Shown in pieces: positions 26,785 to 28,479 of a stretch of 28,536 nucleotides of DNA. A program made the position numbers and the translations under genes. The stretch covers positions 1-28,536 of the IMG/VR virus record IMGVR_UViG_3300009786_000057, one strand, 5' to 3'. The notes below the pieces were generated by a model. The model saw only the letters and a list, made by a program, of their open reading frames with translations. It searched no databases and was not told the origin of the DNA. Numbering within the stretch: position 1 is the first letter of the stretch; each line of letters starts with the position of its first letter. The stretch comes from a virus.

Positions 26785-27111
26785 TCAACTCTTCTTTGGT
26801 TCAGGGTAGATATTGCAGACTTTTATCAAGTGCTGGCCCATCTCTCTTGTTGCAACATCATCAAGTTTATTCACTTCTTTTGCAGGATGTTTTGCCCTCA
26901 TTTCATCGAGGTAACAATCGCACATCTGGCCAACTAAAAACGGTGGTGTCTGCGGGGCTTTCAGTTGAAAATTCCTCACACAGAACGCCCACATTGAGCG
27001 CAGATTTTCGGTTGGGTAATCGCCATGAAACTTTGGTTTGATCAGAGGCGTTTGTTTGCACCCTAAAGTCAGAAATAAAATCAACAATAATATCGGAATC
27101 TTCCAGTTCAA
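26785..27111 (-). CDS. Phage lipoprotein
   Basis: 108 aa, start TTG 27111 with GGAG seven bases upstream. The N-terminus is a short hydrophobic signal ending in the lipobox L-T-L-G-C18, so the mature protein is lipid-anchored, most likely in the outer membrane. The mature part is 91 residues and holds four cysteines with a paired pattern (A-F-C...C-D-C-Y-L-D-E-M near 45-70 and C-N-I-Y-P), probably disulphide-bonded in the periplasm. It follows the lysis peptidase gene. Lysis-associated (spanin-like) or superinfection-exclusion roles are both possible; the sequence does not decide between them. Confidence 0.7.
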   Translation of the reverse strand: MNWKIPILLLILFLTLGCKQTPLIKPKFHGDYPTENLRSMWAFCVRNFQLKAPQTPPFLVGQMCDCYLDEMRAKHPAKEVNKLDDVATREMGQHLIKVCNIYPEPKKS

Positions 27112-27125
27112 ACTCTATCTCCATA

Positions 27126-27518
27126 TCAGTATGTCCAGACGGCGGGCAAAGAAAAGTCAGTCCCACGAGAATCCAAATGTATGAAACGCTTGGGCCTAGA
27201 CCCCCGCAAAGCTAGTCCCAGACCTGTGAACCCTATGTCTTGAGCTTGTTTTATCAGCTTCAAAGTTTTTGTCGTATTCACATGGCCCACCAAAATGTCT
27301 ACTGCCTTTCCGTAAGTGTGTATTCCTGCTTTCGATTTTTTATAACTTGACACGTTAGCATCATGGACTTCACATCTCCTTGCGCTGGAAATACGAAAAG
27401 CAAATCCTGCTTCTTCTCTCAAGGCTTGGAGCATCTTCATAAAATCCCCATCCATGTCACTCTTGCCGCAGCAAGAACAGGCCATTTCGTCACTTGAAAA
27501 ATTTGGTGTAATAAGCAT
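27126..27518 (-). CDS. M15-type peptidoglycan peptidase (endolysin)
   Basis: 130 aa, ATG 27518 with TAGGA upstream. The fold is recognisable from the Peptidase_M15 pattern: N-terminal D-E-M-A-C-S-C-C-G with a D-F-M segment, F-R-I-S-S-A-R-R-C near 41-49, H67-x6-D74 (I-H-T-Y-G-K-A-V-D) and R-F-I-H114-L-D near the end. These are the zinc ligands and active-site residues of D-Ala-D-Ala carboxypeptidase-like endolysins, which cut peptide cross-links in cell-wall murein. No transmembrane or signal segment is visible, so it needs a holin; the two-TM protein at 27962-28393 is the candidate. It is close in length to single-domain M15 lysins. Confidence 0.85.
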   Translation of the reverse strand: MLITPNFSSDEMACSCCGKSDMDGDFMKMLQALREEAGFAFRISSARRCEVHDANVSSYKKSKAGIHTYGKAVDILVGHVNTTKTLKLIKQAQDIGFTGLGLALRGSRPKRFIHLDSRGTDFSLPAVWTY

Positions 27519-27584: not shown

Positions 27585-27758
27585 TTAAGAGATGCTTTTT
27601 TCATAGGCTGCCAAAATCGAGTCATCAACTTTATTTTCCGTAGACTCAACAAGCCTCTTCAAAAGTATCAATATGACTTGCTGTAGCAGCTTCTCACTAA
27701 GCATACTCATACACATTGTCTTCACTACTCCACCAATTAATGGCACTAGAAATGGCAT
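27585..27758 (-). CDS. 57-aa hydrophobic/amphipathic small protein
   Basis: ATG 27758 with GAGGGGG upstream; the start abuts the stop of the 18-aa ORF. The N-terminal third is hydrophobic (M-P-F-L-V-P-L-I-G-G-V-V), followed by an amphipathic helix with L-L-Q-Q-V-I-L-I-L-L-K-R-L-V-E, then S-T-E-N-K-V-D-D-S-I-L-A-A-Y-E-K. The E-N-K-V-D-D-S-I-L pattern resembles a small protein family seen near lysis genes of environmental podoviruses. It may be a holin-related membrane peptide. Resemblance only; no enzyme features. Confidence 0.65.
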   Translation of the reverse strand: MPFLVPLIGGVVKTMCMSMLSEKLLQQVILILLKRLVESTENKVDDSILAAYEKSIS

Positions 27759-27815
27759 TTAAACCCCCTCTCTTTTGGGTGGTTTCGGTTGTTTTGGTTT
27801 CTTTCCGTAACTCAT
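27759..27815 (-). CDS. 18-aa basic peptide ORF
   Basis: ATG 27815 is preceded by a textbook ribosome site (AAGGAG, eight bases before ATG). The peptide is Lys/Pro-rich (M-S-Y-G-K-K-P-K-Q-P-K-P-P-K-R-E-G-V) and its TAA abuts the next ATG (27758). Very short frames are normally doubtful, but the strong Shine-Dalgarno sequence, the tight packing with genes on both sides and the biased composition favour translation. It might be a leader for the next gene or a genuine micropeptide. Confidence 0.5.
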   Translation of the reverse strand: MSYGKKPKQPKPPKREGV

Positions 27816-27816
27816 A

Positions 27817-27948
27817 TTAGCACTCCTTATTTTTATAGGGTTTAGTTGGCTCTACACATTGCCAGATTGGTAATTCATTAGGATGAGTCTCAATCCAATA
27901 TCCTAATCGAGATGTACTTGAACACCCGGTCAAAAAAATTGCTATCAT
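27817..27948 (-). CDS. 43-aa lipoprotein (o-spanin candidate)
   Basis: From ATG 27948 to TAA 27817-27819. The N-terminus is M-I-A-I-F-L-T-G-C9-S-S, a short hydrophobic signal with a lipobox (L-T-G-C); if an upstream ATT (27960) with AAGGAAGGGG in front is used, the signal gains an arginine and becomes more typical. The mature part is only 35 residues and Pro/Asn/Lys-rich. A tiny lipoprotein directly downstream of a membrane protein in a lysis region is the usual position of an Rz1-like outer-membrane spanin, but the partner here (27962-28393) does not look like an Rz i-spanin, so the role is inferred. Confidence 0.6.
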   Translation of the reverse strand: MIAIFLTGCSSTSRLGYWIETHPNELPIWQCVEPTKPYKNKEC

Positions 27949-27961
27949 AATAAATCTAATG

Positions 27962-28393
27962 CTACCCCTTCCTTGAGGCTTGTAGCATTTCTAGTTGCTT
28001 CGATGACTCAATTTCTCGTTCTATGTTTTCAAGCCTTGCAGATACAGAAGCCATGTGTCCTGAACACTCTGCGGAAATTTCCACAAACTTATCAATATTT
28101 TCTTTCTGCATTGCCCGATTAACCTTGTCTGTACGAAACGTCCAGATACCGAGACAAACGATGATTGCTCCAGCAAAGCCTTGTTTCAAGATGAGGTTAA
28201 TCACATCATCCAAGGCGGTGTTTACATTACTCTTTTCCTCGCCTTGATGCGGTGAAATTCGGTAACTATGCTGGTCATAATTAGGCGGCTCCGCTTTTGG
28301 GCGGTGAGGCATGGAAAAGAATATAACCCCAACTACTAAGGCAATTGATAGAAATATTAAAATTCCCGGCAAATATCTTTTTATTAATTTCAT
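27962..28393 (-). CDS. Two-TM membrane protein with coiled-coil tail (holin candidate)
   Basis: 143 aa, ATG 28393 with AAGGATGATGA upstream. Residues 8-27 (P-G-I-L-I-F-L-S-I-A-L-V-V-G-V-I-F-F-S-M) and 72-87 (G-F-A-G-A-I-I-V-C-L-G-I-W-T-F) are hydrophobic and long enough for membrane helices, with a 44-residue hydrophilic segment between. Residues 90-140 are charged and heptad-like (Q-K-E-N-I-D-K-F-V-E; A-R-L-E-N-I-E-R-E-I-E). Both ends would be cytoplasmic, a class-II holin topology, although the long tail is unusual. It is the first clear gene of the lysis region; the small lipoprotein follows the stop by 13 bases. Confidence 0.65.
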   Translation of the reverse strand: MKLIKRYLPGILIFLSIALVVGVIFFSMPHRPKAEPPNYDQHSYRISPHQGEEKSNVNTALDDVINLILKQGFAGAIIVCLGIWTFRTDKVNRAMQKENIDKFVEISAECSGHMASVSARLENIEREIESSKQLEMLQASRKG

Positions 28394-28428
28394 TCATCAT
28401 CCTTGTAAATTCGGAGTTGTGTTTCTAA

Positions 28429-28479
28429 TTATGATGGTTTCGGATACTTCAGTTTTACGCTGGCTCTCTTAGCTTTCAT
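28429..28479 (-). CDS. Possible 16-aa basic peptide ORF (doubtful)
   Basis: ATG 28479 to TAA 28429-28431 encodes M-K-A-K-R-A-S-V-K-L-K-Y-P-K-P-S. The composition resembles the 18-aa peptide further on (Lys/Pro-rich). There is no good ribosome site (nearest GGA about 14 bases away), so this may be chance; I list it because it fills the only gap before the holin candidate. Confidence 0.25.
   Translation of the reverse strand: MKAKRASVKLKYPKPS

Follow-up and report, generated by a model that had tools for sequence, protein, structure and literature searches.

In a marine tailed phage, a modular lysis cassette holds conserved or mobile small genes, among them a putative 18-codon passenger

Between a holin candidate and an M15 peptidase gene, the phage sequence studied here carries three open reading frames (ORFs) of 43, 18 and 57 aa, which raises the question of whether frames this short are genes and whether they take part in lysis. 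The window, i.e., the whole stretch of DNA that was analysed, is a linear IMG/VR record of 28,536 bp and probably a fragment of a larger genome; its close relatives, identified by a shared terminase, are up to 42-44 kb long. Its late genes lie on the minus strand, with the lysis genes at the right end of the window, immediately upstream of the terminase. The source is a marine tailed phage with a modular lysis cassette that runs from 28393 to 26785 on the minus strand, in the order 143-aa gene, LipoA, 18-aa gene, p57, M15 and LipoB:

27962-28393, minus strand: 143-aa membrane protein, BhlA/UviB-type holin candidate (phrog_2429, sub-cut-off Holin_BhlA match, alignment of relatives, low-confidence model)
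27817-27960, minus strand: LipoA, tiny lipoprotein with a proposed AUU start, 47 aa (family alignment)
27817-27948, minus strand: LipoA in its earlier ATG version, 43 aa
27823-27829, minus strand: TAAGGAG, Shine-Dalgarno of the 18-aa gene, within the last codons of LipoA (sequence)
27759-27815, minus strand: 18-aa micropeptide MSYGKKPKQPKPPKREGV, YG/Lys-rich class (relatives and class scan)
27764-27770, minus strand: GAGGGGG, probable Shine-Dalgarno of p57, within the REGV codons of the 18-aa gene (sequence; conserved in L007 and L188)
27585-27758, minus strand: p57, 57 aa, conserved two-helix protein, holin/co-holin candidate (phrog_402/2738, conservation, model)
27126-27518, minus strand: M15 peptidase endolysin (phrog_894, Peptidase_M15_3)
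26785-27111, minus strand: LipoB, 108-aa lipoprotein with a TTG start and a GGAG Shine-Dalgarno (kept among relatives)

All three small ORFs of the sequence-only reading were present on the minus strand where it had placed them, and with its start codons the gaps were 13 nt (143-aa/43-aa), 1 nt (43-aa/18-aa), 0 nt (18-aa/57-aa) and 66 nt (57-aa/M15). It had also credited each with a good Shine-Dalgarno, which held for one of the three, the 18-aa gene; that of p57 is weak, and none lies at a usable distance from the 43-aa ATG. Its proposal of a compact lysis cassette built partly from genes of fewer than 60 codons is well supported by the gene order around M15, the BhlA-type holin candidate and the lipoproteins.

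The larger genes define the setting. M15 matched Peptidase_M15_3 (E=9e-9, 35.9 bits, over the cut-off of 23.2) and the phrog_894 endolysins (E=1.4e-24). The 143-aa protein matched phrog_2429 (E=0.001) and, under the cut-off of 22.6, Pfam Holin_BhlA (E=0.032, 14.6 bits). It has a signal-peptide-like N-terminus, which in relatives ends ..NAYA|EPP or ..QAKA|EPP, and the sequence and the alignment of relatives indicate one transmembrane (TM) segment near residues 68-88 followed by a C-terminal coiled coil; the predicted model has helices at 3-27, 58-88 and 93-142 at low confidence (pLDDT 56). Searches of isolate phages by tblastn with the 143-aa protein and LipoB gave no match. Just upstream, at 28426-28476 (minus strand), a 16-aa ORF without a Shine-Dalgarno, MKAKRASVKLKYPKPS, looks like a remnant or cut-off gene end, because it resembles the C-terminus of a ~100-aa family in relatives (L077 ..KLKYPKPS, L138 ..KAKFPKPE; the L069 copy is phrog_9114).

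Relatives were collected by scans for terminase (66 loci), M15 (71) and p57 (55, by pattern); non-redundant loci with p57 number 72. The module is a mosaic. A block of holin-like genes, consisting of the 143-aa gene, of F9 or of F7 and F5 with or without F6/F8, is followed by optional small genes (LipoA, the 18-aa gene, a 23-29-aa TKEQ gene) and then by p57, M15, LipoB and the terminase. M15 lies immediately downstream of p57 in 67/70 loci, and among the 41 well-flanked loci M15 was found in 38, LipoB in 37, LipoA in 27 and the TKEQ gene in 8. The sequence-only reading had named broken frames in relatives as its own disproof; the 57-aa frame and those of the lipoproteins proved unbroken and conserved, and that of the 18-aa gene is unbroken in each of the three lineages that carry it. 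Judged by this comparison, the small genes count as coding units, a conclusion of high certainty for p57 and LipoA and of good certainty for the 18-aa gene; they are either conserved or mobile, and the last codons of one gene carry the ribosome site of the next. A second movable micro-gene, MTKEQKDHLDRLRKLHEQYRKRR (23-29 aa), occurs in L188, L047, L144, L175 and L181, and in several of these loci its final Lys/Arg codons form the AAGGAG Shine-Dalgarno of the following gene.

The p57 gene is conserved, with a median dN/dS of about 0.1 and 72 non-redundant relatives. Over most of its length (residues 11-56) it matched phrog_402 (E=9.1e-9), and it also matched phrog_2738 (E=3.5e-6). The AlphaFold model has two helices (4-39 and 43-56, pLDDT 85); its moderate hydropathy makes it uncertain whether it truly spans a membrane. 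Remote relatives lie directly upstream of an annotated putative holin gene in Citrobacter phage Mijalis (056) and immediately after a TM/coiled-coil gene in Synechococcus phage Syn5 (gp48), and in cyanophage 9515-10a a gene of the p57 superfamily precedes the terminase small subunit. In phage T7 the holin gene lies between the tail fibre and small terminase genes. From genomic position only, we favour p57 as a holin or co-holin candidate. A tblastn search of isolate phages gave no match, and in a Foldseek search of a viral library with the p57 model all matches were small phage proteins that have no assigned function, the best at E 0.015. When genome contigs were searched with a profile from a narrower p57 alignment, the one match was the phage-like contig L353 (PBPE01000002.1; 29,752 bp), which is binned with a Dehalococcoidia metagenome-assembled genome and is as long as IMG/VR contig 2786546625_000002. 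It is probably a phage contig, and its Dehalococcoidia host assignment is doubtful, because the cassette carries lipoproteins.

LipoA belongs to a family of about 28 members with intact frames, a lipobox, and the signature LG[FYH]W...WQC[VI]...C, in which LG[FYH]W has exceptions and the terminal Cys is conserved. In most members the lipobox is [LIF][TS]GC after a short hydrophobic stretch, with ISC, ASC, SSC and IGC variants in the others. Relatives suggest that the ATG start assigned earlier is probably wrong. Among 11 distinct sequences downstream of the 143-aa gene, which read ...TAG-[CT]-ATT-AGA... (one with ATC, one with AGG), no ATG, GTG or TTG position is common to all, and in L018 the stretch from the in-frame stop to the lipobox contains no standard start codon. 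Members that begin MRYYLL.. (L148) and MKYFIF.. (L159, L188) have their ATG at the aligned position of this ATT, which in the window (27958-27960) follows an AAGG at a distance of six bases; in three members an ATG occurs three codons before it. The simplest reading of these alignments is that LipoA begins at AUU, a candidate start that gives 47 aa.

LipoA has the N-terminal lipoprotein signal with a lipobox that is expected of an o-spanin. Matches of LipoA and LipoB to spanin profiles were weak and did not extend past the signal peptide, tblastn of LipoA against isolate phages gave chance-level matches only, and no i-spanin candidate was recognised in the window. In other relatives F6 matched the Rz-like spanin family phrog_739 (E=0.005), and the F6/F8 genes could be i-spanin partners there. 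Rather than an o-spanin, LipoA might be a lipoprotein that blocks a receptor or excludes superinfection in the manner of T5 Llp, encoded close to the tail-fibre end of the genome. This would fit its mobility (it lies before p57, after M15 or before a 2-TM gene), its absence from 14/41 well-flanked loci, the tail-fibre-region gene (TFA) upstream in many loci and the missing i-spanin partner in the window. We regard it as rather unlikely, if worth keeping in view, as LipoA always lies within the lysis gene block, overlaps TM/coiled-coil genes and has extra periplasmic cysteines as in known o-spanins, and the cassette has in LipoB a further lipoprotein that is more constant.

The 18-aa gene is a harder case. 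Its 7-nt Shine-Dalgarno (TAAGGAG, spacing 7) sits in the 3' end of LipoA (AAG GAG TGC TAA, i.e., K E C stop), and in relatives that lack the 18-aa gene, a Shine-Dalgarno placed in this way serves p57 directly. ORFs of 10-60 aa with a Shine-Dalgarno of at least 6 nt numbered 6 in the window vs 6.15 in shuffles, and those with at least 7 nt numbered 3 vs 1.4. An ORF with a Shine-Dalgarno was thus ruled out as stand-alone evidence, and the case must rest on relatives, because such ORFs barely outnumber those of shuffled sequence. The gene is rare, being found in three lineages: the window (with two near-identical contigs), L007 and L188. In two of the three, where unrelated genes adjoin it, the insert is exact from start to stop codon. 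Where the window reads '...aataaggagtgctaat[57 nt]ATGCCATTTCTAGTG', L138 reads '...aatacggagtgttaaaATGCCATTTTTAGTC', the insert being bounded by the ATG and the stop, and it is also exact against L141 and L018; L007 has a 48-nt copy of the gene at the site where L080 reads '...aaacggagttgatATGCCATTT'. In L188 the gene precedes the TKEQ gene. Since the neighbours differ between lineages, the gene must have moved as a unit, and through conservation and synteny the ORF is placed beyond chance.

Between L188 and L007 the gene shows four synonymous differences, none that is non-synonymous, and an in-frame indel of 9 nt, which is only suggestive of purifying selection because the three copies are near-identical in DNA and the changes few. 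With only three related lineages carrying it, the gene is dispensable. In all three, the GAGGGGG of p57 lies within its final codons, and this nesting of ribosome sites in the last codons of preceding genes indicates that translation of LipoA, the 18-aa gene and p57 is probably coupled.

Such nesting could also mean that the ORF is a translational relay rather than the source of a functional peptide, with its own start and the GAGGGGG site tuning p57 expression. The conserved position of that site, the zero gap to p57 and the optional presence of the gene among relatives are all consistent with a relay. We consider it unlikely: changes in the gene are mostly synonymous and the indel in-frame, and in related peptides elsewhere the residues stay the same as third codon positions change, a pattern for which a relay has no need. 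The idea, raised by the sequence-only reading, of a cationic membrane-active lysis peptide is very improbable. The gene does sit in a lysis cassette and the 18-mer has a net charge of +5, but its hydrophobic residues are M, Y and V only, it is rich in Pro as well as Lys and has no amphipathic face, and related peptides elsewhere adjoin tail tube, capsid and virion genes; this charge and near-lack of hydrophobic residues make membrane disruption unlikely. A chance frame, to which the shuffled expectation would point, is the least probable reading and largely excluded by exact start-to-stop insertion in two contexts and a frame kept in all three lineages.

We instead read the 18-aa ORF as a coding gene, whose peptide fits a widespread and apparently undescribed class of YG/Lys-rich phage peptides of 10-40 aa. 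The class criterion was an M-x-Y-G-K-K-x-K start in a Lys-rich ORF of 10-45 aa with a strong Shine-Dalgarno, and the 18-aa peptide of the window has these features. Scanning for a Shine-Dalgarno with M-x-Y-G-K-K-x-K gave 75 viral contigs, nearly all with Lys-rich ORFs of 10-64 aa, vs 8 contigs in a control scan in which the codons for Y and G had changed places, 4 of which had Lys-rich ORFs of 41-42 aa. Those in L267, L269, L270 and L272 form a distinct family starting MAGYKKNKNMPKK...

Because a search by peptide pattern is biased, we also surveyed 80 contigs fetched solely via a 155-aa gene that adjoins the decapeptide MGYGKKPKKR. In most of them the gene that directly follows the 155-aa one specifies a YG/Lys-rich peptide and has a strong Shine-Dalgarno. 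MGYGKKPKKR itself occurred in 19 contigs with 9 distinct synonymous DNA sequences, a grouping by identical peptide that is circular; across 10 distinct decapeptide sequences, six third-position sites and one conservative R/K amino-acid site vary. The same slot also held MPYGKGTYGKKRGRPPMKKKGKKK and relatives, MGYGNKPYKKSKGKKKKK, MYGKKPAKKKTPMKRKSKKY and others. In a marine podovirus clade (L216:3255-3966 and loci L273-L352), the slot holds a YG/Lys-rich peptide of 10-35 aa between the 155-aa TM/coiled-coil gene and a 68-aa coiled-coil/TM gene, and this peptide differs strongly between close genomes. Elsewhere, between the capsid and tail-tube genes of isolate P-SCSP2, lies a similarly composed 25-aa ORF that is unannotated and has no Shine-Dalgarno; contigs L203/L206 have MAYGKKKKKKMGGRESLKIKKY at this place. 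L154, a relative of the window, has MPQGKGTYGKKRGRPPKRKGK within the lysis block. Some of the peptides contain RGRP, absent from the 18-mer of the window, which we take to resemble an AT-hook. Tblastn of a 24-aa YG peptide against isolate phages gave no match, and in the open literature we found no phage peptide with GYGKK, SYGKK or AYGKKK, the sole occurrence of GYGKK being in a C. elegans paper.

Class members share only their N-terminus, are too short for statistics and have different genomic neighbours, so that common descent, as opposed to convergence of short sequences, is no more than a possibility. We tentatively suggest that these peptides of 10-40 residues may constitute an extensive, genuine and so far undescribed family of micro-genes in phages that share a polyanion-binding role and are gained and lost between other genes as exact units, with MGYGKKPKKR among the shortest conserved coding genes known.

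Overall, comparison of sequences makes it probable that the locus is a modular holin-lipoprotein-endolysin cassette with conserved or mobile small frames and an optional 18-aa passenger gene, all functions being those that we infer. In such a cassette, the 143-aa protein and p57 would carry out the inner-membrane (holin/co-holin) step, M15 would cleave peptidoglycan, and LipoA and LipoB would be the outer-membrane components, with a function like that of o-spanins. The 18-aa peptide would be translated by coupling with LipoA and p57 as an optional passenger of the YG/Lys-rich class and, to guess from its composition, would most likely bind nucleic acid or another polyanion rather than break membranes.

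Gene callers overlook frames this short, which makes the lysis cassettes of abundant marine phages look incomplete. Conservation and mobility of genes of 10-18 codons, if real, would put the lower size limit of protein genes below the one that annotation takes for granted, and the locus offers a direct test site, in that relatives can be matched for presence or absence of the 18-aa insert. The wider class of ultra-short YG/Lys-rich phage genes is, in our view, the more interesting result.

Several known systems resemble parts of this cassette. Like BhlA/UviB holins (PF10960, phrog_2429), the 143-aa protein would have an N-out TM segment followed by a cytoplasmic coiled coil, but it has an extra signal-peptide-like N-terminus and a Pfam score below the cut-off. 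As in two-component spanins of the Rz/Rz1 type (Kongari et al. 2018, PMC6139136), small lipoprotein genes abut or overlap the 3' ends of TM/coiled-coil genes near the endolysin, and cysteines in the mature domain are common to both; in contrast, the window is without an i-spanin, the coiled coil of the adjoining 143-aa protein is predicted to be cytoplasmic, and the LG[FYH]W...WQC family matches no spanin family beyond the signal peptide. With phrog_402/phrog_2738 proteins (Mijalis 056, Syn5 gp48) p57 shares length, the two-helix pattern, a StxNxxDDxl motif and TM/coiled-coil neighbours, and differs from them in its fixed place directly before the M15 endolysin. Finally, the smallest genes described here resemble those in the small phage gene catalogue of Fremin et al. 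2022, as it is cited in PMC11323111, in being very short, unannotated and encoded in phage genomes.
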